Source of the DNA: an uncultured Burkholderiales bacterium
Lineage (GTDB): Bacteria > Pseudomonadota > Gammaproteobacteria > Burkholderiales > Burkholderiaceae_C
DNA: 64,000 bases
Direction: 5' to 3'
NCBI GenBank assembly: GCA_937873395.1
Contig: CALMYH010000036.1
Span: 1-64,000 of the forward strand
A program made the translations under genes and the position numbers. Shown in pieces: positions 15,173 to 30,712 of the stretch (its first letter is position 1; every line of letters begins with the position of its first letter). The notes beneath the pieces were generated by a model, which was not told where the DNA came from, did no database searches, and worked only from the letters and a program-made list of their open reading frames with translations.

Positions 15173-15257
15173 TATTTAAGAATCCGGTGGTGGGCTGGCA
15201 TTGCCGGAAGCCCGCGCGCACGCCGCATCCCCGGACGGCGCCCGTCAGGAGACCCCC

Positions 15258-17627
15258 ATGAAAATCGTCTGCATCGGTGGCGGCCCGGCCGGCCTGTATT
15301 TCGGCCTGCTGATGAAAAAGCTCGATCCGGCCCACGAGGTCATCGTGGTCGAGCGCAACAAGCCCTACGACACCTTCGGCTGGGGTGTGGTGTTCTCCGA
15401 CGCGACCATGGACAACATGCGGGCCTGGGACATCGAGACCGCCAACGAGATCCAGCTGGCCTTCAACCACTGGGACGACATCGAGCTGCTGTTCAAGGGC
15501 CGCACCATCCGCTCGGGTGGCCACGGCTTTGTCGGCATCGGCCGCAAGAAGCTGCTCAACATCCTGCAGGCGCGCTGCGAGCAGCTGGGTGTGCAGCTGC
15601 AGTTCGAGACCGACGTCGAGTCCGACCTGGACTTCCCGGACGCCGACCTCGTCATCGCCAGCGACGGCATCAACTCGCGCATCCGCACGAAGTACGCCGA
15701 CACCTTCCGCCCCGACATCGTGGTGCGCCCCAACCGCTACATCTGGCTGGGCACGCACCGCCTGTACGACGCCTTCACTTTCGACTTCCAGAAGACCGAG
15801 CACGGCTGGTTCCAGGCCCACATCTACAAGTTCGACGACAGCACCACCACCTTCATCGTCGAGTGCCCGGAGCACGTCTGGCAGGCCCACCGCCTGGACC
15901 AGGCCGACCAGGAGCAGAGCATTGCCTTCTGCGAGCACCTGTTCAAGGACACGCTGCAGGGCCACAGGCTGATGACCAACGCGCGCCACCTGCGCGGCTC
16001 GGCCTGGCTGAACTTCCAGCGCGTGCGCTGCGACCGGTGGTGGCTGCGCAACGAACACGGCAGCCACGTGGTGCTGATGGGCGACGCGGTGCACACCGCC
16101 CACTTCGCCATTGGCTCGGGCACCAAGCTGGCCATCGAGGACGCGATGGAGCTGGCCCGCCAGTTCCAGATCGCCGGCGACACGCCCGAGCACATTCCCG
16201 AGGTGCTGGAGCGCTACCAGGCGGTGCGCGCGGTCGACGTGCTGCGCCTGCAGAACGCCGCCTGGAACGCGATGGAATGGTTCGAGGTCTGCGGCCAGCG
16301 CTACTGCGACCAGCTCGAACCCGAGCAGTTCATGTACTCCATGCTCACCCGCAGCCAGCGCATCAGCCACGAGAACCTGCGCCTGCGCGACAAGGGCTGG
16401 CTGGAGGGCTACGAGCGCTGGTTTGCCGCTCGGGCGGCTGCGCAGACGGGCACAGCAGAAGCCCAAGGCGTCGTGCCACCGATGTTCACCCCCTGGAAGC
16501 TCAGGTCGGTGAAATTGAAAAACCGGGTTGTCGTCTCGCCCATGGCCCAGTACAGCTGCAACGACGGACTGCCCGGCGACTACCACCTGGCCCACCTGGG
16601 CGCCCGGGCCCTGGGCGGCGCCGCGCTGGTCATGGCCGAAATGACCTGCCCCAGCCCCGACGCCCGCATCACCCCGGGTTGCCCGGGCCTGTGGAACGAC
16701 GAACAGACGGCCGCCTGGAAGCGCATCACGGATTTCGTGCACCAGCAGAGCGACGCGCGCATCGGCATCCAGATCGGCCACGCCGGGCCCAAGGGTTCGA
16801 CCTGCGCGCCCTGGCAGGGCGACGGCATGGACCAGGCCCTGCCCGAAGGCAACTGGCCGCTGCTGGCCGCCTCGGCCCAGCCCTACCTGCCCGATGGCCA
16901 GCTGCCTCGCGCCATGACCCGCGCCGACATGGACCGCGTGCGCGAGGACTTCGTGGCCGCCACGCGGCGCGCCGCCGCCGCCGGTTTCGACTGGCTGGAG
17001 CTGCACTGCGCCCACGGCTACCTGCTTTCGTCGTTCATTTCGCCGCTGACGAACCGGCGCAACGACGACTTCGGCGGCCCGCTGGCCAACCGCCTGCGCT
17101 ACCCGCTGGAGGTGTTCGCCGCCGTGCGCGCGGCCTGGCCCGAGCACCTGCCCATGAGCGTGCGCATCTCGGCCCACGACTGGGTCGAAGGGGGCATCAC
17201 ACCGGACGAGGCGGTCGAGGTCGCACGCGCCTTCAAGGCCGCCGGCGCCGACCTGATCGACGTCTCTTCGGGCCAGGTCAGTGCCGACCAGAAACCGACC
17301 TACGGCCGCATGTACCAGACCCCGTTCGCCGACCGCATCCGCCAGGAGGCCGGCATCGCCACCATCGCGGTGGGTGCCATCAGCGAGGCCGACCACGTCA
17401 ACAGCATCATCGCCTCCGGGCGCGCCGACCTGTGCGCCGTCGCCCGCCCGCACCTGGCCAACCCGGCCTGGACACTGACCGAGGCAGCGAAGATCGGCTT
17501 CACGAACCTGGCCTGGCCGCGCACCTACGTCTCGGGCAAGTCCCAGATGGAAAGCCTGTTCGCGCGCGAGCGCAGCATGGCCGACGCCCCGTCGGGTGGC
17601 ACGGTGCTGCCGGTGCGCCCCCTCTGA
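15258..17627 (+). CDS. Aryl-CoA monooxygenase/reductase fusion (salicylyl-CoA 5-hydroxylase or 2-aminobenzoyl-CoA monooxygenase type)
   Basis: A 789-residue two-domain flavoprotein. Residues 1-400 form an FAD monooxygenase: [16 protein letters not shown] (Rossmann), then [14 protein letters not shown] and [25 protein letters not shown]. Residues from about 410 are an old-yellow-enzyme-type NADH:flavin reductase ([23 protein letters not shown] and [25 protein letters not shown]). This exact fusion is known from 2-aminobenzoyl-CoA monooxygenase/reductase and salicylyl-CoA 5-hydroxylases, which hydroxylate (and in the former case partly reduce) the CoA-bound ring. ATG at 15258 follows CAGGAGA. 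It leads an operon with a thioesterase. No ligase gene is in the window, so the substrate is open. Confidence 0.88.
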
Positions 17628-17649
17628 CCGCCAATCACGGAGCCTGCCC

Positions 17650-18072
17650 ATGCCGATCTGGACCCAGCCGATCTCCTGCGAGATCCTCGCCCGCCTGCAC
17701 GAGGGCACCGCGGTGCAGCACCTGGGCATCGAATTCCTCGACGTGGGGGAAGACAGCATCACTGCCCGCGTGCCGGTGGACTCACGAACGAAGCAACCGT
17801 ACGGCCTGCTGCACGGCGGCGTGAGCGTGGTGCTGGCCGAGACCCTGGGCAGCTGTGGCGCCGCCTTCAGCTGCCCGCCGGGCCACCGCGCGGTCGGGCT
17901 GGACATCAACGCCAACCACCTGCGCGGCGCCACCGCCGGCTGGGTCACCGGCGTCACCCGGCCGGTTCACATCGGCCGCAGCACCCAGGTCTGGCAGATC
18001 GACCTGCGCAACGACGCCGGCGAGCCCACCTGCGTCTCGCGCCTGACGATGGCGGTGCTGGCGCCGCGCTGA
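17650..18072 (+). CDS. Hotdog-fold acyl-CoA thioesterase
   Basis: A 140-residue thioesterase of the PaaI/YdiI group. The key block HGGVSVVLAETLGS contains the catalytic-region His and the Glu/Asp helix position, and INANHLRGATAGWVTGVTRPVHIGRSTQVWQIDL is the typical second half of the single hotdog domain. It begins 22 bases after the aryl-CoA monooxygenase and is surely cotranscribed. The natural reading is that it releases CoA from the hydroxylated product, for example gentisyl-CoA to gentisate if the partner is a salicylyl-CoA hydroxylase. That pairing is inference from context. The ATG at 17650 was chosen because the domain starts right after it. Confidence 0.87.
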   Translation: MPIWTQPISCEILARLHEGTAVQHLGIEFLDVGEDSITARVPVDSRTKQPYGLLHGGVSVVLAETLGSCGAAFSCPPGHRAVGLDINANHLRGATAGWVTGVTRPVHIGRSTQVWQIDLRNDAGEPTCVSRLTMAVLAPR

Positions 18073-18191
18073 ATCCCCTCGCACAGCAGCCAACCAGCGA
18101 GGGCCGGTCATCCTGCCTGCTGCTGCCGGCAGATCAGGGCCCAGCCGCACAGGCTTTGGACGGACAAAAGCCCTCCGCTCGATCGAAGGCC

Positions 18192-18209
18192 TCGTCACAG
18201 AAATGTCAC
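18192..18209 (+). promoter_or_regulatory. Candidate Pho box upstream of phnD
   Basis: TCGTCAC-AGAA-ATGTCAC has two GTCAC units exactly 11 bases apart, as in the PhoB consensus CTGTCAT-AWAW-CTGTCAY; about 14 of 18 positions agree. It ends 44 bases before the phnD start codon. PhoB control of phosphonate transport is well known in proteobacteria; binding here is inferred. Confidence 0.55.
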
Positions 18210-18253
18210 GACAAACACGCATGCTCACGGGCTTGTCATTACTGGAGTGTCAC

Positions 18254-19198
18254 ATGCCCGTCGGAAAACTTGCTTTCGCCGTCCTGGCTTTCGCCGCCAT
18301 CGGCGCCCAGGCCATGGATCCCCGCTTCAAGGACGCCGATGGCGACCTCGTGGCCGATGCACCCACCGATCCCAAGCAGTGGATCGACCCTGCGACCCTG
18401 GTGTTTGCTTACACGCCCGTTGAAGACCCTGCGGTGTACGCCAAGGTCTGGGAGGGGTTCATCGACCACCTGGCCAAGACCACCGGCAAACGGGTGCAGT
18501 TCTTCCCTGTGCAGAGCAACGCAGCGCAGCTCGAGGCCATGCGCGCGGGCCGCCTGCACGTGGCCGGCTTCAACACCGGCTCGAACCCGCTGGCGGTCAA
18601 TTGCGCCGGTTTCGTGCCGTTCGCCATGATGGCCTCCAAGGACAACCGCTTCGGGTACGAGATGGAAATCATCACCTTCCCCGGCAGCGGCATCGAGAAG
18701 ATCGAGGACATCAAGGGCAAGCGCATGGCCTTCACGGCGGAGACTTCCAACTCCGGCTTCAAGGCGCCCTCGGCCCTGCTGCGCGAGCAATTCAAGATGG
18801 AAGCGGGCAAGGACTTCACGCCCGTCTTCAGCGGCAAGCACGACAACTCCATCCTGGGCGTGGCCAACAAGGACTATCCCGCAGCGGCCATTGCCAACTC
18901 GGTGAAGGCTCGCATGGAAGCGCGCGGCGTGGTCAAGCCCGAGCAGACCAAGGTGGTCTATAAGTCGCAGACTTTCCCCACCACGGGCTACGGCTACGTC
19001 TACAACCTCAAGCCCGAGCTGGCCGAGAAGGTCAAGCAGGCCTTCTTCAGCTTCAACTGGGAGGGCACCGCCCTGGCGGCCGAGTTCAACAAGTCGGAGC
19101 CGCCGCAGGAGAAGTTCATTCCCATCACCTACAAGCAGCATTGGCAGGTGGTGCGCGAGATCGATCGCGCCATGAACGTCAGCTACGCCTGCCGATAA
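18254..19198 (+). CDS. phnD: Phosphonate ABC transporter substrate-binding protein
   Basis: A 314-residue periplasmic binding protein with a signal peptide (VGKLAFAVLAFAAIGAQA). Family features are FAYTPVEDPAVYAKVWEGFIDHLAKTTGKRVQFF, the AAQLEAMRAGRLHVAGFNTGS block lining the phosphonate site, and the SNSGFKAPSALLREQF segment. It delivers phosphonates to the PhnCEE importer encoded directly downstream. The ATG at 18254 follows CTGGAG; a longer in-frame start at 18203 would bury the signal peptide. First gene of the operon phnD-phnC-phnE-phnE, preceded by a Pho-box-like site. Confidence 0.92.
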   Translation: MPVGKLAFAVLAFAAIGAQAMDPRFKDADGDLVADAPTDPKQWIDPATLVFAYTPVEDPAVYAKVWEGFIDHLAKTTGKRVQFFPVQSNAAQLEAMRAGRLHVAGFNTGSNPLAVNCAGFVPFAMMASKDNRFGYEMEIITFPGSGIEKIEDIKGKRMAFTAETSNSGFKAPSALLREQFKMEAGKDFTPVFSGKHDNSILGVANKDYPAAAIANSVKARMEARGVVKPEQTKVVYKSQTFPTTGYGYVYNLKPELAEKVKQAFFSFNWEGTALAAEFNKSEPPQEKFIPITYKQHWQVVREIDRAMNVSYACR

Positions 19199-19210
19199 GG
19201 GAGCCTTGAC

Positions 19211-20047
19211 ATGCTGGAGCTGCGTCAGCTGGAGAAGCGCTATGCCACCGGCGACCTCGCGCTCAAGGGCGTGAGCCTGAGCGTGGGGGCGGGGGAGGTG
19301 CTGGGTTTGATCGGCCCGTCAGGGGCCGGCAAGTCCACCCTTATCCGCTGCGTGAACAGGCTGGTGCAGCCCAGCAGCGGGCAGATTCATCTGGACGGGC
19401 AGGACCTGGGCGCGCTCGGCGCGTCCGGCCTGCGCCAGGCGCGGCGTCAGATCGGCATGATCTTCCAGGAATACGCCCTGGTCGAGCGCCTGACCGTGAT
19501 GGAGAACCTGCTGTCCGGCCGGCTGGGGTACACCGGCTTCTGGGCCAGCTGGTTTCGCCGTTTCCAGACCGATGACATTGCCCAGGCGTTTTCGCTGCTG
19601 GAGCGGGTTGGCCTTGCAGGCATGGAAAACAAGCGGGCCGATGCGCTCTCGGGCGGGCAGCGACAGCGGGTGGGCATTGCGCGCGCGCTGATGCAGAGCC
19701 CCAAGTTGTTGCTGGTGGACGAACCCACCGCCAGCCTGGACCCCAAGACCTCGCGCCAGATCATGCGGCTCATTCTGGAGCTGTGCCAGGAGCGCGGCCT
19801 GGCCGCCATCGTGAACATCCACGACGTGGTGCTGGCCACCGAATTCCTGCCGCGCATCGTCGGCCTGCGCGCGGGCAGCGTGGTGTACGACGGCGCCGCT
19901 GCCGGCGTCGACAACGAGGTGCTCACGCGCATCTACGGCGACGAGGACTGGACCGCCATCACCCAGCGCATGCAGGCCACGGCCGAGGGCGCTGACCCGC
20001 ATGGCGAGCGGGACGATCGCAACCTGGCGCTGGTGGCCGCGGCATGA
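19211..20047 (+). CDS. phnC: Phosphonate ABC transporter ATP-binding protein
   Basis: A 278-residue ABC ATPase. Walker A is GPSGAGKST (residues 35-43), the Q-loop is [25 protein letters not shown], a PhnC-specific stretch, the signature is [15 protein letters not shown] and Walker B is [12 protein letters not shown]. The residues LSGRLG and [11 protein letters not shown] between Q-loop and signature distinguish PhnC from amino-acid ATPases. It energises the two PhnE permeases and starts 12 bases after phnD. Its stop overlaps the first phnE start in an ATGA, indicating translational coupling. Confidence 0.93.
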
Positions 20048-20862
20048 GCGCCGCTGCAAGCGCTGCCGCGGCGCTGCCGCGCCAGTGGCGACGCCCGCCT
20101 TTCATTGCCAGCCCGCTCACGCGTTGGGCCCTGTACGCGGGTGGCGCGCTGTACCTGGTTCTGGCCATCGCCTCAGTGGAAGTGAATTGGGTGCGAGCCC
20201 TACAGGGCCTTGAGCGTGGCTGGGCGTTCGTGCTCGGCTTTCTGCAACCCGACTTCAACAGCCGCTGGGACGACATCGCGCTGGGGTTTCAGGAAAGCCT
20301 GACCATGACCGTCACCTCGACCGCGCTCGGTGTGGCGCTGTCGATACCGGTGGCGGTGGGCGCGGCGCGCAACCTGGCGCCCACCTGGATCTACCTCATC
20401 TGCCGCGGCTTTGTGGCCTTGTCGCGCACGCTCAATGAAATCATCGTGGCGATCTTTCTGGTGGCCATGTTCGGCTTCGGCCCGTTCGCCGGTTTCCTCA
20501 CACTGACTTTTGCCACCATCGGTTTCATGGCCAAGCTCATGGCCGAAGACATCGAGGAAATCGAGGCTTCGCAGCTTGAAGCGCTGCGCGCCACCGGCGC
20601 GGGCTACCTTCAGGTGCTGGACTTTGCGGTGCTCTCCCAGGTGATGCCACGCCTGGTGGGCTTGTCGCTCTACCGGCTGGACATCAACTTCCGTGAGTCG
20701 GCGGTGATCGGTATCGTGGGCGCCGGCGGCATCGGTGCCACGCTCAACACCGCCATGGACCGCTACGAATTCGACTCCGCAGCGGCCATCCTCATGGTCA
20801 TCATCGCCATCGTCATGGTGGCCGAGTACAGCTCGGGCTGGCTCAGAAAGCGCATCCAGTGA
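20044..20862 (+). CDS. phnE: Phosphonate ABC transporter permease, first PhnE
   Basis: A 272-residue inner-membrane permease with about six helices. The PhnE domain shows [24 protein letters not shown], the [15 protein letters not shown]-like region ([25 protein letters not shown]) and the cytoplasmic coupling loop [16 protein letters not shown]-type sequence [43 protein letters not shown] is the family end block. It overlaps phnC by four bases and the second permease by four bases. Two distinct PhnE proteins in one operon probably form a heterodimeric channel. Confidence 0.92.
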
Positions 20863-21671
20863 GCACCAACGAGAAGGCCTTTCCCGTGTGGCGCAAGCGC
20901 TCCACCCGCGCCGACTGGATTGCTTTCGGCAGCTGGGTGCTGGCGCTGGCGTTCGTGTCCTGGACCTTCCAGGTGATGACGCAGGACACCATCTGGGCCT
21001 TCGTGGCCGATGCGCCGGCGCAGATGGAAGACATCGGCACCCGCATGATGCCGCCGGCCTGGAGCTTCATTCACGAACTCTGGTGGCCGTTGTGGGAGAC
21101 GATCAACATCGCCACGCTGGGCACGCTCATCGGCCTGGTGATGGCGGTGCCGGTGGCCTTTCTGGCCGCGCGCAACACCACGCCCAGCGCGCGCTTCGTG
21201 CGCCCGGTGGCGCTGCTGGTGATCGTGGCCTCGCGCTCCATCAATTCGCTCATCTGGGCGCTGCTGCTGGTGGCCATCCTGGGCCCGGGTGTGCTGGCCG
21301 GTATTCTGGCCATCGCGCTGCGCTCCATCGGCTTCATCGGCAAGCTGCTGTACGAATCGATCGAAGAAATCGACGGCGCACAGGTGGAGGCCATCGAGGC
21401 CACCGGGGCCAGCTCGGCGCAGACCATGGCCTGGGGCGTGGTGCCGCAGGTGGCGCCCACGCTGGCTGGCGTCACCGTCTTCCGCTGGGACATCAACATC
21501 CGCGAGTCGACGGTGCTGGGACTTGTCGGCGCGGGCGGCATCGGCGTCAAGCTGGAAGCCGCGCTGGGCACGCTGGCCTGGCCCAAGGTGACCATGCTCC
21601 TGATCGTCATCCTGGCCACGGTGGTGGTCAGTGAGTGGGTGACGGCACAGGTGCGCCGCAAGCTGATCTGA
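20859..21671 (+). CDS. phnE: Phosphonate ABC transporter permease, second PhnE
   Basis: A 270-residue PhnE paralogue beginning with GTG at 20859, inside the stop region of the first permease. It has the same architecture: LWETINIATLGTLIGLVMAVPVAFLAARN, ASRSINSLIWALLLVAILGPGVLAGI, coupling loop IEEIDGAQVEAIEATGASSAQTM and end block ESTVLGLVGAGGIGVKLEAAL. Identity with the first copy is moderate, so this is an old duplication rather than a recent one. The four-base overlap indicates coupled translation and equal amounts of the two halves. Confidence 0.92.
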   Translation: MSTNEKAFPVWRKRSTRADWIAFGSWVLALAFVSWTFQVMTQDTIWAFVADAPAQMEDIGTRMMPPAWSFIHELWWPLWETINIATLGTLIGLVMAVPVAFLAARNTTPSARFVRPVALLVIVASRSINSLIWALLLVAILGPGVLAGILAIALRSIGFIGKLLYESIEEIDGAQVEAIEATGASSAQTMAWGVVPQVAPTLAGVTVFRWDINIRESTVLGLVGAGGIGVKLEAALGTLAWPKVTMLLIVILATVVVSEWVTAQVRRKLI

Positions 21672-21684
21672 GCGTAAAGCTGGC

Positions 21685-22473
21685 ATGGCCGAGCGCACCT
21701 TGTCCAAGAACAGTCTGCTGGCCGAGTGGCTGAACCGCTGCCTTGTGCGCAACCGGCAACCGCATGGTCATGCCAGACGCATCCTGTCCTTCAATGGACA
21801 GGTCATCGGCTCTGTCGACCCCCTTCTTTGGCCCTTGGTGGCACCGCACTGGCCGCCCGCGAAGTCGCTCGACAAGTGCCTGGACAGCCTGGCACAAGCC
21901 CTGCAGGCAAGCGGGCGCTGCGGTGTCTGGCGCAACGAGTTCGTGGCGGTCAGGAACGCCGAAGGCAACGGGGTCGGCCGCATCGAACGCGGGGCAGCGC
22001 GTGTGCTGGGTGTGGCCACCGAGGCGGTGCATCTGGTCGGTTTTGCACCCGATGGGCGCGTCTGGATCCAGCAGCGCGCGCTGGACAAGGCGAACGACCC
22101 GGGCCTGTGGGACACGCTGGTGGGCGGCATGGTCGCCAACGGCGAAACTCTCCACGACACCATGGTTCGGGAAACCCGCGAAGAAGCCGGTCTACCGGTG
22201 CATGAACTGCAGAACCTGAAATGGGGCACGCCCTTCCTCATGACCCGTCCCACGGACGACGGCGGCGGCCTGGGACAACTGGTCGAAACCGTCCACTGGT
22301 GCGTGGCGACGGTTCCTGCGCACCTCCGCCCGGAGAACCTCGATGGCGAGGTGGCCGGATTCGAATGCCTGGATGCGAACGCGGTGGCCCGACGGGTGCT
22401 TGACGGGGCATGCACCGACGAGGCGGCGCTGGTGCTGGCCCGAGCGCTGGGCTGGCCGCTCAGTCCCGCCTGA
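21685..22473 (+). CDS. Nudix hydrolase with DUF4743-type N-terminus
   Basis: A 262-residue protein with an N-terminal domain of about 110 residues (DUF4743-like, SVDPLLWPLVAP) and a C-terminal Nudix domain. The Nudix box GGMVANGETLHDTMVRETREEAGL is complete (G-5X-E-7X-REVXEEXG pattern), so hydrolase activity is expected. The fungal relative YJR142W acts on oxidised thiamine diphosphates, and bacterial members of this group may do the same. It starts 13 bases after the second phnE and overlaps the convergent phnX by 14 bases at its 3' end. Its cotranscription with phosphonate genes is notable but the functional link is unknown. Confidence 0.82.
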   Translation: MAERTLSKNSLLAEWLNRCLVRNRQPHGHARRILSFNGQVIGSVDPLLWPLVAPHWPPAKSLDKCLDSLAQALQASGRCGVWRNEFVAVRNAEGNGVGRIERGAARVLGVATEAVHLVGFAPDGRVWIQQRALDKANDPGLWDTLVGGMVANGETLHDTMVRETREEAGLPVHELQNLKWGTPFLMTRPTDDGGGLGQLVETVHWCVATVPAHLRPENLDGEVAGFECLDANAVARRVLDGACTDEAALVLARALGWPLSPA

Positions 22474-23284
22474 CGGCGGCCGCCATGCGCTGCTCGATGG
22501 TCTCGATCACGGCCGGAAGGTCGGCCACCGTGTCGATGAAGAAGTTGGCGTCGCCTTCAGCAAGGGTTTCACGGGCCTGGTTTCGCAGCACCGTCCTGCG
22601 CGACGCGTCCAGACCCTGCCACTGTGCCTCGGTCAGTCCCAGGGCGTTGCCACTGGCCAGCACGGCCACGGTCCAGCAGCCGGCGTGCCGGCCCTCCAGC
22701 AGGCCCGGCACCGTGTCGTCCACCTTGACGACACGCTGCGGATCGTGGATGCCCAAGCGCTCGAACAGGTGGCGCATGCCCATGGGCGACGGCCGGGACT
22801 CCGGCAGATCGCCGGCGCAGACGACCGCCTCCGGATCGAAGCCCTGCCGGGCCGCCAGTGGAATCAACACTTCCATGATGTCCCGGTTGTAGCCGGTCGT
22901 CGAGGCGATGCGCAGGCCACGTTTTCGCAGCCAGTCGAGCGTCTCCACCGTGCCCGGAATCAGGTCGGCGTGCTGACGCACCGACGCGGCGTTCATCGGC
23001 GTGAACTCGGCGTACAGGGCATCGGTATCGGCGTTGCCGAAGGGCCGCCCATGGACATCAAGCCAGGCCTGGGCGATGCGGGGCATCCGGCCCAGGGCCT
23101 GGATGTGGTGCCACTTCGGCAGCCCCATCGGCACCCGCGCTTCGTCAATGCCGATCTCGACGCCATGACGGCGGAAGAGTTCGACGAACGCCCCCATCGG
23201 AGCCTGGCTGCCGAAGTCGATGACGGTACCGGCCCAGTCGAAGACAACGGCCTGCAAGAAGGAGGAAGCTGGGTTGGGGTTCAT
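22460..23284 (-). CDS. phnX: Phosphonoacetaldehyde hydrolase (phosphonatase)
   Basis: A 274-residue HAD-superfamily enzyme that splits phosphonoacetaldehyde into acetaldehyde and phosphate. Asp16 in FDWAGT is the nucleophile, with the PhnX-specific Ala in place of the usual second Asp; Lys57 in PMGLPKWHHIQAL is the Schiff-base lysine that defines phosphonatases. SQAPMGAFVELFRRHGVEI and GYNRDIMEVLIPLA support the true PhnX subgroup. The ATG at 23284 lies four bases after the stop of the flavin oxidase gene, so the two are cotranscribed. No phnW transaminase is present to supply its substrate by the classical route. Confidence 0.95.
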   Translation of the reverse strand: MNPNPASSFLQAVVFDWAGTVIDFGSQAPMGAFVELFRRHGVEIGIDEARVPMGLPKWHHIQALGRMPRIAQAWLDVHGRPFGNADTDALYAEFTPMNAASVRQHADLIPGTVETLDWLRKRGLRIASTTGYNRDIMEVLIPLAARQGFDPEAVVCAGDLPESRPSPMGMRHLFERLGIHDPQRVVKVDDTVPGLLEGRHAGCWTVAVLASGNALGLTEAQWQGLDASRRTVLRNQARETLAEGDANFFIDTVADLPAVIETIEQRMAAAVRRD

Positions 23285-23288
23285 GGCA

Positions 23289-24413
23289 TCACCAGGTTTG
23301 GACAACTTCTTCGGCAATGGCAAAAGCCGTGCTGGCACCGGTTCCGCTGGTGACCAGCACCAGGCGCTGGCCGGGCGCAGGCGCCTCGATCAGGCAGTCG
23401 GCGGCATGGCCCACCGGATAGACCCCGGTCCATCGCTCGACCACGTCATACCCGGGCAGGTCGAGCAGCTCACGCAGGTGACCCAGGATGCGCTCATCGA
23501 CGTCTTCGCTGGCGAAGGGCTCCGGCGAATCGTGTGCATGGTGGGAATCCCCCACCACGAGGGTGCCGTCGCGGCTTTGCACGGCGATCAGGTGGATGCC
23601 GTCGGCCAGGCTTTGCGGGCATTCCAGACGCAGTTGCTGCAACAGCGCAGCCGACGACTCCAGGTCCGCATAGCCGTGGTAGCGAACCAGGCTGAGGTCG
23701 CCCATCACCGCTGAAGGGAGGCGATAGCGGGCGGGCGGGCGCACGCGCAGCATCTGCAAGCGGGTCAATTGCAGGGCGTGCGCGGGCATCATCTGGCGGG
23801 CCACACCGTTGAGCTCGGTCCCCGGGCAGACGACCACCCGCTCACCGGTCCAGGTCTGCTGCGGCCCGTGGACACGGGACCCCTCCAGTCCCAGCGCCTC
23901 CTGGCCCCAGACAAAGCACACACCCTGTGACTGCAACCAGGCCGCCAGCCGCGGGATGGCCTCCCGGGACTCGACCCGCAGCTCATGCGGACTGTACAAC
24001 GCACCCGCCGCCTCCGACGACCGCAGGCCCGGTGCACGCTCACCCCAGCGGCTGCCCACATGCAGCTCGCAGGACCGCCCCATGTCGGTATCGGCAAATT
24101 CGGCCAGGACATCGAGCGCCAGCGGCCGGCGCGCCACCACCCAGAGCCCGGTGTGCAGCACCTCGATGCCCGCCTGCGGCGCCAGTTCCGCCCACAGGTC
24201 GCGGCTGCGCCGGGCGCGGCGCCAGGTTTCACCGCTGCGTTGGCCGGTCACGGTGACAAAACCGAAATTTCGGACCGAGGCGCCGACACATCGGTGATCC
24301 CGCTCGATCACCGCGACGCGCCAGCCCCGGCGCCAGCCCATCCAGGCATGGGCCAGGCCGACAATGCCCGCCCCCACCACGATCAGGTCAAAGTTCTTCT
24401 GGTCGGCCAGCAT
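23289..24413 (-). CDS. Phosphonate-associated FAD-dependent amine oxidase (TIGR03364-type)
   Basis: A 374-residue DAO-family flavoprotein. The N-terminal FAD motif is FDLIVVGAGIVGLAHAWMGWRRGWRVAVIER (from residue 8), followed by GASVRNFGFVTVTGQ, the typical GASxRNFG block of this group; the C-terminal flavin block is VLVTSGTGASTAFAIAEEVV. The TIGR03364 family is known from phosphonate operons and is thought to oxidatively deaminate aminophosphonates. Lying between the AEP importer and phnX, it probably converts 2-aminoethylphosphonate or an N-alkyl form to phosphonoacetaldehyde with release of peroxide, replacing PhnW. That substrate is inference. The ATG at 24413 follows GAGGA. Confidence 0.82.
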   Translation of the reverse strand: MLADQKNFDLIVVGAGIVGLAHAWMGWRRGWRVAVIERDHRCVGASVRNFGFVTVTGQRSGETWRRARRSRDLWAELAPQAGIEVLHTGLWVVARRPLALDVLAEFADTDMGRSCELHVGSRWGERAPGLRSSEAAGALYSPHELRVESREAIPRLAAWLQSQGVCFVWGQEALGLEGSRVHGPQQTWTGERVVVCPGTELNGVARQMMPAHALQLTRLQMLRVRPPARYRLPSAVMGDLSLVRYHGYADLESSAALLQQLRLECPQSLADGIHLIAVQSRDGTLVVGDSHHAHDSPEPFASEDVDERILGHLRELLDLPGYDVVERWTGVYPVGHAADCLIEAPAPGQRLVLVTSGTGASTAFAIAEEVVQTW

Positions 24414-24426
24414 CGATGCACGGTCC

Positions 24427-26139
24427 TCAGCGTTGGCGCCAGCGCTGCGTGCGCACCAGCAGGCCATGGGAAAACAGCGCCATCAGGCCACGCACGACCG
24501 CCGACGTCAGAAAAATCAGGACCGCCATGGCCGCCGCCGAGGCCACGGTGCCGGCGTCGTCCATGTTGAGGACGGCCACCGAGGCGAGGGCGGTGTGGGG
24601 CGCATACAGGAAGACCACGGCCGAAACCGTGGTCATGGCGTTGACGAAGAAGAAGCCTGCCACCTGCACCAGGGTCGGCAGGCACACGGGCAGGTGCACC
24701 CTCAACAGGGTCTTGATCATGGGCACACCGAGCGACTCGGACACCACCTCGAACTCGGCGTCGGTCTGCCGCATGGCCGCCAGCAGCGTCAGGTGGGCCA
24801 CCGAATAGAAATGGACCACCGTGCAGATGATCAGGATGGCCATGGTGGCGTAGAGGCCGCCCAGGGGATTGCCCGGTGCATTGAAGAAGAAGATGTAGCC
24901 GATGCCCAGCACCAGTCCGGGTATCGCCAGAGGCAGGTTCAGCAGCAGATTCAGCGCGTCCCGCATGGGCCCGTGGTGGCGGGGTTTGTCGACCAGCCAG
25001 GCACTGAAGAAGGCGCAGACGGTTCCGACGACAGCGACACCGAGGGCCATGCGGATGGAGTTGAAGTAGCTGGCCCAGCCGCCGCCGTCCATGTTGTCGA
25101 AGTCGTAGTGGCGCAGGCTGGGACTGAGGTTGTAGGGCCAGAATGTGGCCATGGAAGCAAAGACGGCCACACCGATGACGGCCAGCAGGCACAGGGCCAC
25201 GACCGCGCAATAGAGCCAGAGCAGGCGGTCGCGCCAGGCATGCGGTTGCGGCTGCAGCAGGCTGGCTCGCGCACCGAGGGCGGCGGCCTGCCGGCGCCGG
25301 AAATGCCGCTCCAGCGCAAAGGCACCGACTGCCGGTAGCAGCAGCCACACGCCCACCACGGCCCCCATGGAAAAATTCTGTTGCCCCACTACCTGCTTGT
25401 ACAGGTCGGTGGCCAGCACGTTGGCAGCCCCTCCGATCACCTTGGGCACACCGAAGTCGGTGATGACCAGCACGAACACCACCACAAAAGCCATCATCAG
25501 CCCATAGCGGCTGGCCGGCAGGGTCACCGTCCAGAACACGCGCACCGGACTGGCGCCCAGGGTCCGGGCCGCCTCCTGCAGGCGGCCGTCCTGGGTGGCC
25601 AGACTGGTCATCAGCAACAGAAGCGCGTGCGGAAAGGTCCACAGCACGGAGCCGATGACGATGCCGGGCTCGCCGTAGATGCCGCCGAACGGAGCCATCC
25701 ACCCCTTGAGCAGGCCCTGGTTGCCGAACAGGTAGATCAGGCTGATGCCCATCAGCAGCGAGGGGGCCAGCAGGGGAACCAGCGCGGCGGCCCGGAACAA
25801 TCCTTTGTGCCGCATGCAGCTCTGGGTCAATGCATAGGCATAGCCATAAGCCAGCAGCACACAGATCAGCGAGGCCAGGGCCGACAACCGGATGCTGCGC
25901 CCGATCGAGTCCGACAGGGCCGGTGTCTGCCAATAGGCCGCGTAGTGGGCCAGACCCACCCACTCGCCCTCGGCGTTGACCAGGCTGCGCAGCAACAGGC
26001 TGCCGACCGGCAAGACGATGAACAGCAGGCCCAGCAGCAGCAGGCCACCAGTGCCCAGAGCCACGCCCCAGCCACCGCGGCGACCGGACCGGACCATCTG
26101 GGCAACGCCCTCCTCGTGGGCCAGGACCGCCTCAGACAT
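24427..26139 (-). CDS. 2-Aminoethylphosphonate ABC transporter permease, double-domain
   Basis: A 570-residue inner-membrane protein with two fused permease halves (about residues 80-270 and 350-560), each with an EAA-type coupling loop: LQEAARTLGASPVRVFWTVTLP and FEVVSESLGVPMIKTLLRVHLP. Around twelve helices are visible. Such FbpB-like fused permeases are found in the putative AEP importer family next to PhnS and PhnT. The start MSEAVLAHEE at 26139 overlaps the stop of phnT by eight bases. One polypeptide therefore forms the whole channel, in contrast to the two-gene PhnE system upstream. Confidence 0.88.
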   Translation of the reverse strand: MSEAVLAHEEGVAQMVRSGRRGGWGVALGTGGLLLLGLLFIVLPVGSLLLRSLVNAEGEWVGLAHYAAYWQTPALSDSIGRSIRLSALASLICVLLAYGYAYALTQSCMRHKGLFRAAALVPLLAPSLLMGISLIYLFGNQGLLKGWMAPFGGIYGEPGIVIGSVLWTFPHALLLLMTSLATQDGRLQEAARTLGASPVRVFWTVTLPASRYGLMMAFVVVFVLVITDFGVPKVIGGAANVLATDLYKQVVGQQNFSMGAVVGVWLLLPAVGAFALERHFRRRQAAALGARASLLQPQPHAWRDRLLWLYCAVVALCLLAVIGVAVFASMATFWPYNLSPSLRHYDFDNMDGGGWASYFNSIRMALGVAVVGTVCAFFSAWLVDKPRHHGPMRDALNLLLNLPLAIPGLVLGIGYIFFFNAPGNPLGGLYATMAILIICTVVHFYSVAHLTLLAAMRQTDAEFEVVSESLGVPMIKTLLRVHLPVCLPTLVQVAGFFFVNAMTTVSAVVFLYAPHTALASVAVLNMDDAGTVASAAAMAVLIFLTSAVVRGLMALFSHGLLVRTQRWRQR

Positions 26140-27244
26140 GCGCGCCCAGCAGGACCAGGGCCCGGGACGGCAACTCTGCCTCGATCCGATCCCCCCGCGA
26201 CCAGGGAAGCTCACCCCCGGTCGGGGTCGTCAGTTCGGCCTCCACCGTGGCGCCCATGGTGGGTGCTTCCAGCCGCACCTGGATGTAGGCGCCGCAGAAC
26301 ACCACGTCGCTGACTTCGACCGGCACCCGGTTCGGAGGTGCCGGCACCGGAAGCGGCGCGCGTTCGTTGGCCCAGTCGCGGTCCCGCAGAATCACCTGCT
26401 CGGGCCGGATGCCGATCTGCGGACTGGTGGTGGCGCCCAGGCGTTCTGCAGCGTCCATTTCCAGCGTCTGCTGGCCGACCCTCACCCGCCCCTGTCCATC
26501 TGGCCGGGCGTCCCAGACGTTCATCCGGCCGACAAAACGCGCGGCGAAGGTGCTGGCCGGCCGCGCGTACAGCTGCCGCGGGGCACTCTGCTGCACGATG
26601 CGTCCCTGGTCCATGAGCACGATCCGATCCGCCATGGCCATGGCCTCGTCCTGATCGTGGGTGACCATGACTGTGGGTATGCGCAGGTGTCTTTGCAGGC
26701 GACGGATTTCCTGGCGCAGGAAACCGCGCACCTGGGCATCCAGTGCGGACAGGGGCTCATCGAGCAGCAGCAGGCGTGGCGACGGCGCCAGCGCCCGGGC
26801 CAGGGCCACCCGCTGCTGCTGGCCGCCGGACAACTGCGCCGGGTACTTGGCCCGGTGGGCCACCAGACCCACCAGTTCAAGCATGTCCTCCGCCAGCTTT
26901 CGGGCCCGTTCCCGGCCCATGCCCTTGAGCCCGTACATCACGTTGTCGAGCGCGCTCAGGTTGGGGAACAGGGCGTAGGACTGGAACACCACACCGAAGC
27001 GCCGCTGGGCTGGCGCCCAGTCGCTGATGTCCTGACCCTTGAGCCACACCCGTCCCTGATGCTCGGGTTCAATGCCGCACAGGATGCGAAGCAGCGTGGT
27101 CTTGCCACAGCCCGACGGGCCGAGCAGGCAGACGAACTCTTCTTCACCAATCGACAAATCGATGTCTTCGAGCACCGGCTGCCGGCCGTAGCGTTTGCCG
27201 ATCCCGCGCAGCTCCAGCCAGTCGCCCGGTGCGTCGGTGCCCAT
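26132..27244 (-). CDS. phnT: 2-Aminoethylphosphonate ABC transporter ATP-binding protein
   Basis: A 370-residue ABC ATPase of the iron/AEP importer branch. Walker A is LGPSGCGKTT, the Q-loop VVFQSYALFPNLSALDNVMYGL, the signature LSGGQQQRVALARAL and Walker B LLLLDEPLSALD. A C-terminal TOBE regulatory domain follows (about residues 270-370, including IGIRPEQVILRDRDW). The start ATG at 27244 lies seven bases after the phnS stop. The neighbours on both sides are matching importer subunits, so the substrate assignment comes from PhnS. Confidence 0.88.
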   Translation of the reverse strand: MGTDAPGDWLELRGIGKRYGRQPVLEDIDLSIGEEEFVCLLGPSGCGKTTLLRILCGIEPEHQGRVWLKGQDISDWAPAQRRFGVVFQSYALFPNLSALDNVMYGLKGMGRERARKLAEDMLELVGLVAHRAKYPAQLSGGQQQRVALARALAPSPRLLLLDEPLSALDAQVRGFLRQEIRRLQRHLRIPTVMVTHDQDEAMAMADRIVLMDQGRIVQQSAPRQLYARPASTFAARFVGRMNVWDARPDGQGRVRVGQQTLEMDAAERLGATTSPQIGIRPEQVILRDRDWANERAPLPVPAPPNRVPVEVSDVVFCGAYIQVRLEAPTMGATVEAELTTPTGGELPWSRGDRIEAELPSRALVLLGAHV

Positions 27245-27251
27245 GGACGTA

Positions 27252-28289
27252 TCAGCGCTTTTCCGCCTTGGACTCGTAGCGGCGGCTCCACTCGGCCAGA
27301 ATGCGGTCGCGGTTGGCGGCCGACCAGGCAAAGTCGTTCTTGGCCAGCATGCCGTCGATGCTTGTCGGGATGTGCTCCAGCTTGGGCTGCACGCCCTGGA
27401 ACGCGACGATCGCGAAGTTCTTCGCGTACAGCTCGCTGGCCTCCCGCGTCACCGCCCAGTCGGCCAGGGCCTTGGCGGCCTCCGGGTGACGGGTATTCTT
27501 CATGATGCCAGTGGCTTCCAGCTCCCAGCCCAGACCTTCGGACGGCAACACCACGTTGATGGGGGCGCCGTCGGTCTTGAGCTTGTTGGCCCGGTACTCG
27601 AAACTCAGCCCGATGGGGTACTCGCCCGCGCCGGCGAGATTGCAGGGCTTGCTGCCCGAGTGCGTATAGACGCCGATGTTCTGGTGCAAGGCGTCCATAA
27701 AAGCCCAGCCCTTGTCCTCGCCCATCATCTGCAACCAAGCGGCCACCATCAGGTAGCCGGTGCCGGAGCTGGCCGGGTGCGGCATCGTGATGGCACCACG
27801 GTAGACCGGCTTGGTCAGGTCGGCCCAGGAAGCGGGCTGCGGCAGGTTCTTCTTGCCGGCCTCGACGGTGTTGAAACACGCCGCAGAGGCATAGACGTTC
27901 ATGCCCACCCAGCTGGGCTGCTCGCCAGGGGCCCGCATGTTGGGCTTGATGCTGTTCATGCCCTTGGGCGCGTACGGCATCAGCATGCCCTCCTTGTCCA
28001 GCACCGCCAGCGAGGACGCGGCCAGCCCCCACACCACGTCGGCTCGCGGGTTGGCCTTCTCGGCGAGCAGCTTGGCGGTCATGATGCCGGTCGAATCCCG
28101 CACGAACACCAGATCGATGCCTGGGTGGGCCTTCTCGAAGGCGGTCTCGTACGCCCTGATCTGATCGGCCTCGAGTGCGGTGTAGACGGTCAGCTGCGTC
28201 TTGGCCTGCGCAAAGGCCGCGCCTGACAGCGCCAGGGCGAACACAGGCGCGAGGGTCTTCAGACCACAACGGATGGGTGGGAACAGCAT
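27252..28289 (-). CDS. phnS: 2-Aminoethylphosphonate-binding protein
   Basis: A 345-residue periplasmic binding protein. A signal peptide ends in ALALSGAAFAQA; the mature part starts KTQLTVYTALEADQIRAYETAFEKAHPGIDL, the hallmark opening of PhnS-type AEP receptors, followed by RDSTGIMTAKLLAEK and the HPASSGTGYLMVAAW block. It captures 2-aminoethylphosphonate and leads the minus-strand operon phnS-phnT-permease-oxidase-phnX. The ATG at 28289 has a clear AGGAG site. A Pho-box-like sequence lies 50-67 bases upstream on the same strand. Confidence 0.9.
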   Translation of the reverse strand: MLFPPIRCGLKTLAPVFALALSGAAFAQAKTQLTVYTALEADQIRAYETAFEKAHPGIDLVFVRDSTGIMTAKLLAEKANPRADVVWGLAASSLAVLDKEGMLMPYAPKGMNSIKPNMRAPGEQPSWVGMNVYASAACFNTVEAGKKNLPQPASWADLTKPVYRGAITMPHPASSGTGYLMVAAWLQMMGEDKGWAFMDALHQNIGVYTHSGSKPCNLAGAGEYPIGLSFEYRANKLKTDGAPINVVLPSEGLGWELEATGIMKNTRHPEAAKALADWAVTREASELYAKNFAIVAFQGVQPKLEHIPTSIDGMLAKNDFAWSAANRDRILAEWSRRYESKAEKR

Positions 28290-28329
28290 GGCGATTTCTC
28301 CTCGGGTTGACTCCAAAGCGTCATGTTGA

Positions 28330-28353
28330 GGAGGCAATATGAAAGCCTGTTGA
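28330..28353 (+). other. Four-codon minicistron with strong ribosome site before phnZ
   Basis: GGAGG at 28330-28334 is followed by ATG at 28339 and codons AAA GCC TGT, then TGA at 28351-28353. The phnZ-like ATG at 28366 is in the same frame, 12 bases further. The phnZ start itself lacks a good ribosome site, so this ATG-TGA may be a leader for reinitiation, or the original start cut off by a nonsense change. Confidence 0.5.
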
Positions 28354-28356
28354 CAG
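28339..28356 (-). promoter_or_regulatory. Candidate Pho box upstream of phnS
   Basis: On the minus strand the sequence CTGTCAA-CAGG-CTTTCAT has two 7-base units with an 11-base period and agrees at about 13 of 18 positions with the PhoB consensus, mostly in the two half-sites. It lies 50-67 bases upstream of the phnS ATG, nearly the same distance as the phnD site. It also falls within the leader of the divergent phnZ-like gene. Confidence 0.5.
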
Positions 28357-28365
28357 TCCGGCGAC

Positions 28366-28932
28366 ATGAAGCTCGACCTGAACCACCTTCTTGAACTGCT
28401 GCTTCTGCGTGGGCATGAGCGGTACGCGGGAGAACCGGTCTCCCACCTGCAGCACGCTCTGCAAACCGCCCACCTGGCCCAGTGCGCGGGAGCCGGTGCT
28501 TCGCTGGTGGCTGCCGCCCTGCTGCACGACATCGGCCACCTGCTGCATGGCCGGACCGGCACACCCAGCGCACAGGGCATCGACGATCGCCACGAAGTCA
28601 TCGGCGCCACCGTGCTGTTCAGCCTGTTCGGATCCGAGGTTTCCGAGCCGGTGCGCCTGCATGTGCAGGCCAAACGCCGCCTGTGCCTCGACCCCGGCTA
28701 TCTGGCCACCCTGTCCGATGACTCCCAGCGAAGTCTCGCCCTGCAAGGCGGCCCGATGAACGCGCACGAGGCCCAGTTGTTCGACGCGCACCCGTTTGGG
28801 CCCGATGCCGTGACGCTCAGGCGATGGGATGATGCGGCAAAGTCCGCTTCTGCTGAAACACCGGAACTGGCGCACTTCGCTGCTCTGGCCATGGGGCAAC
28901 TGCCAGCGCCCGGAAATCCGGCCGGTCCGTGA
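28366..28932 (+). CDS. phnZ: HD-domain mixed-valence diiron oxygenase, PhnZ-like
   Basis: A 188-residue protein of the phosphonate-degradation HD family (TIGR03276-type). PhnZ cleaves 1-hydroxy-2-aminoethylphosphonate oxidatively to glycine and phosphate. The six metal ligands of PhnZ are all matched: His30, His54, Asp55, His76, His99 and an Asp at 155/156. Tyr20 and Glu23 in RYAGE sit where PhnZ has Tyr24 and Glu27, the latter recognising the substrate amino group, so a primary-amine substrate is favoured over the trimethylated one of TmpB. The obligate partner dioxygenase PhnY is not in the window. It is divergent from phnS; the start codon lacks a good ribosome site of its own. Confidence 0.88.
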   Translation: MKLDLNHLLELLLLRGHERYAGEPVSHLQHALQTAHLAQCAGAGASLVAAALLHDIGHLLHGRTGTPSAQGIDDRHEVIGATVLFSLFGSEVSEPVRLHVQAKRRLCLDPGYLATLSDDSQRSLALQGGPMNAHEAQLFDAHPFGPDAVTLRRWDDAAKSASAETPELAHFAALAMGQLPAPGNPAGP

Positions 28933-28997
28933 CGATTTGCCGCCTTCGGCGTGGGCGCATGCGCTCCCTGGGCGCTGTGGCGTGTTGAAATGTCCGC

Positions 28998-30122
28998 ATG
29001 AGCTCCCCGAACGTCCCCATCGACAACGAACTGGGGCATCACCTGGCCCAGATGGTCGCGCACGGCGCCTCCGACCTGTTTCTTTCCGCCGGCTGCGCGC
29101 CCTCCCTGAAGGTGCAGGGGCAGACATTTCGCCTGCCCCTGCCTGTCCTGAGTGGAGAGGAAACCCGGCGGCTGGCCTATTCGGTGATGAGCGAAGCGCA
29201 GATCCGCGATTTCGAGTCCAGCCTGGAATGCGACCTGGCCATCGCGCTGCCGGAGCTGGGGCGATTTCGCGTCAATGTCTATCGCCAGCGCGGCGACGTG
29301 GCGGCGGTGGTGCGCCACATCAGCGCCACGATTCCGTCGATCGAGTCGCTCAAGCTGCCAGCGGTCCTGCGGGAGCTGTCCCTGCTGGAGCGCGGGCTGG
29401 TGCTGGTGGTCGGCGCAGCCGGCTCGGGCAAGTCGACCACGCTGGCGGCAATGCTGGACCACCGGAACCACCACAGAAGCGGCCACATCCTGACCGTCGA
29501 GGATCCGATGGAGTTCGAGCACAGGCACGGCAGCTGCATCGTCGACCAGCGCGAAGTCGGGCTGGACACCAGGAGCTTCGACGAGGCGTTGCGACACGCC
29601 ATGCGCGAAGCTCCCGACGTGATCATGATCGGGGAAATCCGGGATCGCGAGACCATGAAGCATGCATTGACCTACGCCGAGACCGGCCATCTGTGCGTCT
29701 CGACCCTGCACGCCAACAACGCCAATCAGGCGATCCAGCGCATCCTCAATTTCTTTCCGGACAACGCACACCGGCAGGTGCTGCTGGACCTCTCGCTCAA
29801 CCTCAAGGCGGTGGTCGGTCAGCGACTGATCCGTGGCCCACACGCGCGGCTGGTGCCGGCAGTCGAAGTGCTGCTGCAGTCACCCTATGTGGCCGAGCTG
29901 ATCCAGAAAGGACAGACCGACGATCTCAAGGAGATCATGGCTAGGAGCAACGAGCTGGGCATGTGCACCTTCGACCAGTCCCTTTATGAGCTGGTCATGC
30001 GGGGGGAACTGACGGCCGAGCAGGCCATCGAGCACGCGGACTCGCGCACCGACCTGTCGCTGCGCATCCGCCTGCGCCAGGGTCGCGGACCAAAAGCCGC
30101 CGGTCTTCACCTGGCCGTCTGA
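28998..30122 (+). CDS. pilU: Type IV pilus retraction ATPase, PilU/PilT family
   Basis: A 374-residue cytoplasmic ATPase that powers pilus retraction (twitching). Walker A is GAAGSGKSTT, the Asp box LTVEDPMEFEHRHGSCIVDQREVGLDT, Walker B-type MIGEIRDRETM and the His box ETGHLCVSTLHANNANQAIQRI are all present. The sequence EFEHRHGSCIVDQREVGLDT and the long C-terminus point to PilU rather than PilT. PilU usually follows pilT; here no pilT lies upstream within the window, since the phnZ-like gene precedes it. The ATG at 28998 lies 65 bases after that gene, probably with its own promoter. Confidence 0.88.
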   Translation: MSSPNVPIDNELGHHLAQMVAHGASDLFLSAGCAPSLKVQGQTFRLPLPVLSGEETRRLAYSVMSEAQIRDFESSLECDLAIALPELGRFRVNVYRQRGDVAAVVRHISATIPSIESLKLPAVLRELSLLERGLVLVVGAAGSGKSTTLAAMLDHRNHHRSGHILTVEDPMEFEHRHGSCIVDQREVGLDTRSFDEALRHAMREAPDVIMIGEIRDRETMKHALTYAETGHLCVSTLHANNANQAIQRILNFFPDNAHRQVLLDLSLNLKAVVGQRLIRGPHARLVPAVEVLLQSPYVAELIQKGQTDDLKEIMARSNELGMCTFDQSLYELVMRGELTAEQAIEHADSRTDLSLRIRLRQGRGPKAAGLHLAV

Positions 30123-30145
30123 ACCGGGCGCGGCGCGCCAGCGCC

Positions 30146-30712
30146 TCAGGCGTCTCCCTGACGGCTCAGGCGCTCGCTCTTCCAGTAGACGTCGTCCCCG
30201 CCGTTCATGCGGTTGAGCACCCGCGCGAGCACGAACATCAGATCGGACAACCGGTTCAGGTACTGGCGCGGCGCGTCCTTGATCGCTTCTTCGTTGCCCA
30301 GGGCCACCACGGCACGCTCGGCCCGGCGTGCGACCGTGCGGCACACATGGGCCAGGCTGGCCGCCCGCGTGCCGGCCGGCAGAATGAACTCCTGCAGGCG
30401 GGGCAGTTGCTCGTTGTAGGTGGCCAGCGCCTCGTCCAGCGCCAGCACCGCCTCGGGCTTGAGCAGTTCGAAACCCGGGATCGACAACTCGCCGCCGAGG
30501 TTGAACAGCTGGTGCTGGATCTCGACCAGCAGGGTGCGCACGTCCTCCGGCATGGGCTCGCACAGCAGCACGCCGATGTGCGAGTTGAGTTCGTCGACAT
30601 CGCCCATGGCGTGCACACGCAGGCTGTTCTTGGAGACGCGGGAGTTGTCACCGAGCCCCGTGGTGCCGGCATCACCGGTGCGGGTGGCGATCTGGGTGAG
30701 GCGGTTGCCCAT
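30146..30712 (-). CDS. Cob(I)alamin adenosyltransferase, PduO type
   Basis: A 188-residue enzyme that transfers adenosyl from ATP to cob(I)alamin to form coenzyme B12. The N-terminal ATP site TRTGDAGTTGLGDNSRVSKNS and the block MGDVDELNSHIG are the PduO signature, and the C-terminal RTVARRAERAVVAL and YLNRLSDLMFVLAR complete the five-helix bundle. No other cobalamin genes or B12-dependent enzymes are visible around it. It is convergent with pilU (24-base gap) and divergent from the FAD-linked oxidase gene. Annotation tools often call this family cob(I)yrinic acid a,c-diamide adenosyltransferase. Confidence 0.92.
   Translation of the reverse strand: MGNRLTQIATRTGDAGTTGLGDNSRVSKNSLRVHAMGDVDELNSHIGVLLCEPMPEDVRTLLVEIQHQLFNLGGELSIPGFELLKPEAVLALDEALATYNEQLPRLQEFILPAGTRAASLAHVCRTVARRAERAVVALGNEEAIKDAPRQYLNRLSDLMFVLARVLNRMNGGDDVYWKSERLSRQGDA

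Follow-up and report, generated by a model that had tools for sequence, protein, structure and literature searches.

The closest described relatives of the locus treated here, a predicted aminophosphonate gene cluster in a 64,000-nucleotide stretch of contig CALMYH010000036.1 from an uncultured Burkholderiales bacterium (hereafter the window), are pathways in which a flavin enzyme delivers phosphonoacetaldehyde. The PbfC and PbfD flavin enzymes convert N-methyl-2-aminoethylphosphonate (N-methyl-AEP) to phosphonoacetaldehyde experimentally (PMC10590968, iScience 2023). In the sections of that article dealing with PbfD, the PbfD2 enzyme of Mariniblastus fucicola, a host apparently without phnW, is given as using 2-aminoethylphosphonate (AEP) only 4-fold less well, the combination of PbfD2 and PhnX is named as a third pathway, and PbfD1 of Acinetobacter baumannii carries a TIGR03364 annotation. 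A cluster from Achromobacter brings together phnX, phnSTU, lysR, hpnW (TIGR03364) and phnHD (TIGR03276); 1-hydroxy-2-aminoethylphosphonate (HAEP) is given as the in silico substrate, and some pseudomonads covered in the same article are presented as having TIGR03276 proteins with PhnW and PhnX and no PhnY* (PMC11203657, International Journal of Molecular Sciences 2024). Homologues of the HD-domain oxygenase PhnZ are also on record from hydrolytic clusters. Table 1 of PMC8154272 counts phnZ in 15 of 1186 phnWX and 24 of 75 phnWAY clusters and never with pbfA; that article ties phnZ in such clusters to (R)-HAEP, and its passages on the subject do not state that PhnY* is absent from them. Where phnZ occurs in marine genomes, phnA or phnX is often its companion (PMC9381506).

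The cluster in the window is real and ordinary, being of the published PbfD–PhnX kind; for its HD oxygenase no partner enzyme is visible. On the minus strand, five genes are tightly packed from 28289 to 22460 in the order phnS2, phnT2, phnU2, TIGR03364 oxidase and phnX. The first three encode a predicted AEP-type importer, comprising a phnS2-type substrate-binding gene (27252..28289, ATG at 28289; TIGR03261, 505.4 bits, cut-off 392.75), a phnT2-type ATPase (26132..27244; best family TIGR03265, 411.3 bits, below the cut-off of 457.7) and a phnU2-type double-domain permease (24427..26139, start codon uncertain; TIGR03262, 740.5 bits, cut-off 593.25). They are followed by a PbfD-type flavin adenine dinucleotide (FAD) amine oxidase (23289..24413; TIGR03364, 391.3 bits, cut-off 285.1), the frame of which is open from 24467 with ATG 24413 as the likely start, and by phnX, encoding phosphonoacetaldehyde hydrolase (22460..23284; TIGR01422 equivalog, 327.1 bits, cut-off 220), the likely ATG of which sits 4 bp past the oxidase stop. 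Divergent from phnS2, on the plus strand, lies a gene for a PhnZ/TmpB-like HD-domain diiron oxygenase (28366..28932; TIGR03276, 207.4 bits, cut-off 214.6). An initial annotation had read the region as a single phosphonate supercluster with two importers, a TIGR03364-type oxidase between importer and phnX replacing the transaminase PhnW, and a PhnZ-like enzyme dependent on a PhnY encoded elsewhere. Its AEP-type importer, oxidase, phnX, HD gene and missing PhnW and PhnY are all borne out, and the proposed replacement of PhnW holds up well; its phnDCEE phosphonate importer, with it the notion of two phosphonate importers, and the need for a PhnY elsewhere do not.

The source genome (3.70 Mb, 183 contigs) is 99.49 % complete and encodes a single TIGR03364 protein over the cut-off, that of the window. 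No PhnW over the cut-off was detected anywhere in it, the best score (83.7 bits against a required 360.8) belonging to a distant aminotransferase, and the absence of any match to PhnJ (PF06007) in the genome gives no sign of the carbon–phosphorus (C–P) lyase pathway. We surveyed 250 genomes of the same bacterial family and fetched 116 regions around oxidase or HD genes, 45 of them around the oxidase. The oxidase was present in 45 genomes, PhnX in 48, PhnW in 47, the HD protein in 85 and PhyH-family proteins in 145. PhnX accompanied the oxidase in 39 of its 45 genomes, and 29 of the 33 genomes having PhnX without PhnW possessed the oxidase. PhnW (E value 1e-70) was missing from 33 of the 45 oxidase genomes, an upper figure because some of these genomes are incomplete (down to 76 %); in this family, then, oxidase-bearing genomes are mostly without the transaminase. 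Within the 45 oxidase regions, several of which are cut by contig ends, phnX was found in 34, phnU2 in 33, the HD gene in 19 and phnW in 6. In a tree of 44 of the 46 oxidase rows (two short rows of 22 and 56 amino acids were left out), the group of the window enzyme drew 12 of its 13 rows from PhnW-less genomes, with a Shimodaira–Hasegawa-like approximate likelihood ratio (SH-aLRT) of 93 %, below the 95 % mark; the tree did not split cleanly by PhnW, the no-PhnW label requiring 7 changes against a shuffled mean of 10.7. A search of the PDB sequences with the oxidase returned no match at E values up to 0.001, and a scan of the genome contigs for related loci yielded 39 stretches fitting a pattern, none of which was confirmed. 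Family assignment, the gene order of relatives, the lack of PhnW and the published PbfD biochemistry together support a role for the oxidase in place of PhnW, an idea that is well supported yet already in print.

TIGR03276 is the best family of the HD protein, which is the only such copy in the genome. Aligned to PhnZ, it keeps the diiron set H...HD...H...H...D (H30, H54-D55, H76, H99 and D155), the YxxE loop (Y20-E23) and also K103 and R152; the diiron motif and the YxxE loop are described as marks of PhnZ and TmpB (PMC8177086). A tree of HD proteins places the window row with four other oxidase-cluster rows, at an SH-aLRT of 88 that is not firm and with long branches flagged. The same tree holds a close TmpB relative from this bacterial family (L165, G082:C5), which groups with the 6npa stretch (SH-aLRT 99). 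The hydroxylase PhnY*, the first-step partner of PhnZ, we take to belong to PF05721 (PhyH). No PF05721 match was obtained genome-wide at E values up to 0.001, so no PhnY*-type hydroxylase was recognised, and PhyH matches are likewise missing from 19 of the 85 HD genomes, the window genome among them. Two TauD-family proteins are encoded, both with taurine dioxygenase as their best family, under that model's cut-off; as candidates for a TmpA-like hydroxylase they were rejected on this fit, no TmpA-like family being listed. Among the rows listed, a PhyH gene and an HD gene were 10 kb or less apart in a single pair (G082:C33, judged by eye). Imported (R)-HAEP appears a likelier substrate for the HD oxygenase than the product of a PhnY elsewhere. 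The orphan HD gene is already known too, its substrate being putative both in the published cases and here; with no match to PhnW over the cut-off, PF05721 or PhnJ, this genome offers a clean setting for the question of what a partnerless TIGR03276 enzyme acts on.

The intergenic region between the two divergent transcription units contains a candidate regulatory site. The Pho box has the pattern CTGTCATN4CTGTCAT, and when up to 3 mismatches were allowed, its single match in the whole window was the tentative Pho-box-like site CTGTCAACAGGCTTTCAT (28339..28356, minus strand, 2 mismatches), which falls inside the 76-base gap between phnS2 and the HD gene. Chance matches at 2 mismatches were estimated at 0.27 per 64 kb from 15 simulated sequences. 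Using 450-base upstream stretches from relatives and random controls drawn from the same regions, we detected a Pho-box-like match (at most 3 mismatches) upstream of phnS in 25 of 56 cases, compared with 25 of 1160 random stretches (Fisher p 6e-23), the controls being mostly coding and imperfectly matched in base make-up. Such matches were recorded upstream of the HD gene in 4/20, the oxidase in 3/42, phnU2 in 1/56 and phnT2 in 1/57 relatives, and upstream of phnX (0/35) and phnW (0/29) in none. The site between phnS2 and the HD gene is tentatively put forward as a new detail.

Taking the observed gene identities, gene order, genome-wide absences and conserved HD-oxygenase residues together, we infer the substrates, products and regulation of what is probably a cluster for scavenging phosphate from aminophosphonates, of the 'PbfD + PhnX' type already described, with an HD side branch. 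PhnS2-T2-U2 would import AEP and closely related compounds. Drawing on O2, the TIGR03364 oxidase would deaminate N-methyl-AEP, and probably AEP, to phosphonoacetaldehyde, methylamine or ammonia, and H2O2, and PhnX would then split phosphonoacetaldehyde into acetaldehyde and phosphate. On the side branch, the HD oxygenase would act on an external hydroxylated aminophosphonate, most likely (R)-HAEP, to give glycine and phosphate; no PhnY* would be required because the substrate would arrive already hydroxylated from outside. PhoB perhaps controls expression. A bolder version would make this a compact, PhoB-controlled cluster, free of a transaminase, for three aminophosphonates, in which the oxidase acts on both AEP and N-methyl-AEP, the partnerless HD enzyme takes imported hydroxylated forms including N-methyl-HAEP (releasing sarcosine), and the TIGR03276 'Phn-HD' class consists of scavengers of hydroxy-aminophosphonates from the environment instead of second-step enzymes; we consider this version unlikely.

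Several observations weigh against the reading of an oxidase–PhnX cluster with an HD side branch under PhoB. Twelve of the 45 oxidase genomes do carry PhnW, 6 of them in the same cluster, and the two tested PbfD enzymes share only ~30 % identity (PMC10590968), so that use of AEP by the window oxidase is a guess. The TIGR03276 score of the HD protein falls slightly short of the cut-off, and the docking described for Achromobacter HpnW favoured glycine derivatives (PMC11203657). PhyH proteins occur in 66 of 85 HD genomes as against 79 of 165 genomes without the HD protein (Fisher p 7e-6), a co-occurrence to be expected were the HD substrate produced by PhyH enzymes; it may merely follow genome size, the PhyH family being broad. 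The count of Pho-box matches does not exceed chance (1 match, with a shuffle mean of 3.48 at 3 mismatches), and it is the place and fit of the match, not the number, that tentatively argue for a site. Finally, in relatives with a GntR gene, phnR (TIGR03338), some of the Pho-box-like matches are palindromic and may be GntR operators.

The oxidase could alternatively be an ancillary N-methyl-AEP enzyme that leaves AEP untouched, the cluster then serving N-methyl-AEP (and HAEP), which we regard as possible without being probable. PbfC is reported to disfavour AEP ~400-fold (PMC10590968), N-methyl-AEP is said to be preferred by PbfC and PbfD representatives (PMC12366243), and where phnW shares the cluster (the 6 oxidase genomes above) AEP use by the oxidase would be redundant. 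However, this genome has no PhnW over the cut-off and an AEP-type importer heads the operon, the window enzyme falls in the largely PhnW-less tree group (though below the 95 % mark), and PbfD2, from a phnW-less cluster, shows only the 4-fold drop with AEP (PMC10590968). That hydroxymethylphosphonate, N-methylated HAEP or some further compound takes the place of (R)-HAEP as substrate of the HD oxygenase, with formate or sarcosine as product, is rather doubtful. GmPhnZ does cleave hydroxymethylphosphonate as well as HAEP, TmpB acts on the trimethyl compound (PMC10574752), and 17 of the 116 fetched regions, most of them with phnW, have a sarcosine/dimethylglycine-dehydrogenase-like fusion gene close to the HD gene; yet that fusion gene is found in none of the fetched regions with the oxidase, the neighbours of the HD gene in the window are an AEP importer and PhnX, and the retained YxxE glutamate is, in PhnZ and TmpB, close enough to the amino group of the substrate for a hydrogen bond. 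As for the view of the initial annotation that the HD oxygenase is supplied by a PhnY-type hydroxylase encoded elsewhere, which opens a second AEP route, PhnY/PhnZ and TmpA/TmpB pairs do exist (PMC8177086), the genome has its two TauD-family proteins, and HD and PhyH proteins co-occur above chance in the family. The lack of any PF05721 match in a genome that is 99.5 % complete, and in 19 of 85 HD genomes, the taurine-dioxygenase fit of both TauD proteins and the published occurrence of PhnZ homologues in hydrolytic clusters nevertheless render it extremely improbable.

The alternatives extend to the neighbouring plus-strand genes, which had been annotated as phnDCEE and which, as a true second phosphonate importer, would make the whole region one supercluster. 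The ATPase ('phnC', 19211..20047; TIGR02315, 331 bits, cut-off 266.1) and the two permeases ('phnE', 20044..20862, 266.2 bits, and 20859..21671, 271.5 bits; TIGR01097, cut-off 216.7) do pass the PhnC and PhnE models. The binding protein ('phnD', 18254..19198), by contrast, fails the PhnD equivalog TIGR03431 (132.8 bits against 261.1), and in a PDB search its best hits by far were 9lf9/9lfb (469 bits), followed by the phosphite-binding PtxB at 93 bits. It shares 203 of 300 aligned residues (68 % identity) with GpxB, a binder of glycerol-1-/3-phosphate, and all nine GpxB ligand residues (T111, G112, Y138, S168, N169, S170, H199, R223 and T247) are identical. No match of at least 60 bits to this protein exceeded 33 % identity in the 116 fetched regions. 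A relative (E value up to 1e-80) is encoded in 14 of the 250 family genomes, this one included, 8 of which also have the oxidase. Among these 8, it adjoins the oxidase cluster only in this genome; in 5 (G018, G022, G147, G188 and G231) the two are widely separated or lie on different large contigs, and in 2 (G009 and G171) contig ends obscure adjacency. A general phosphonate importer would also be of less use since the genome has no PhnJ. A second phosphonate importer is therefore very unlikely; the sequence comparison suggests that these genes most likely encode a glycerol-1-/3-phosphate importer, a neighbour and probably no part of the cluster, and that the region holds one AEP-type importer with a probable glycerol-phosphate importer adjoining. 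Genes resembling phnD elsewhere may similarly encode mislabelled glycerol-phosphate importers.

Between phnX and the phnDCEE-like genes, convergent with phnX, is a gene for a Nudix hydrolase (21685..22473, plus strand; PF00293). Relatives of it adjoin phnX in three fetched regions (L117, L120 and L124) and in some others lie no more than several kb from HD genes. The flanks encode a flavin hydroxylase/old-yellow-enzyme fusion, a thioesterase, a T2SSE-family ATPase and a cobalamin adenosyltransferase. The proteins scanned in the interval from 15201 to 30712 included no recognised regulator, and the window returned no tRNA or Rfam matches.

The regions fetched from relatives revealed further arrangements of HD genes. 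The fusion gene that accompanies the HD gene in those 17 regions (for example, L144:12782-15217) encodes ~810 amino acids, joining an FAD oxidoreductase (PF01266, PF16350) to folate-binding GCV_T domains; 15 of these 17 regions have phnW and none the TIGR03364 oxidase, one of them (L132) coming from a genome (G209) whose oxidase sits on another contig. The fusion may demethylate N-methylated AEP, or the sarcosine or dimethylglycine that might be released by an HD oxygenase; a literature search turned up no published description of it. A second TIGR03276-like HD group occupies 14 regions (L172, L174, L176, L178-L181, L183-L187, L189 and L190), all 14 with a histidine kinase gene (cluster c13) nearby, 11 with a LytTR response regulator (c16) within 7 kb, and none with a match to the window phosphonate genes or PhnW. 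In L163, L164, L168, L166 and others, the HD gene stands immediately 3′ of a phnCDE importer, the binding protein of which passes the PhnD equivalog in L166; PhnX, PhnW and the oxidase had no match in these fetched regions.

Compared with the described systems, the neighbouring importer is reminiscent of that of GpxB (PMC12718374, PDB 9lf9), a likeness in sequence at the 203/300 identical and 9/9 ligand residues given above. The cluster itself shares with the M. fucicola PbfD2/PhnX pathway a PbfD-family oxidase and phnX and, as far as that pathway is described, the lack of phnW in cluster and genome (PMC10590968); the window cluster has a PhnZ-like HD oxygenase as well. The Achromobacter cluster has the same enzymes and importer in an operon without phnW, but differs in having phnW elsewhere, lysR in the cluster and C–P lyase genes (PMC11203657), whereas the window genome has no phnW over the cut-off, no PhnJ and no regulator found between 15201 and 30712. 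In the phnWX and phnWAY clusters with phnZ, an HD homologue likewise accompanies a hydrolytic pathway and is linked to (R)-HAEP (PMC8154272); in the window cluster, a flavin oxidase would stand in for PhnW.

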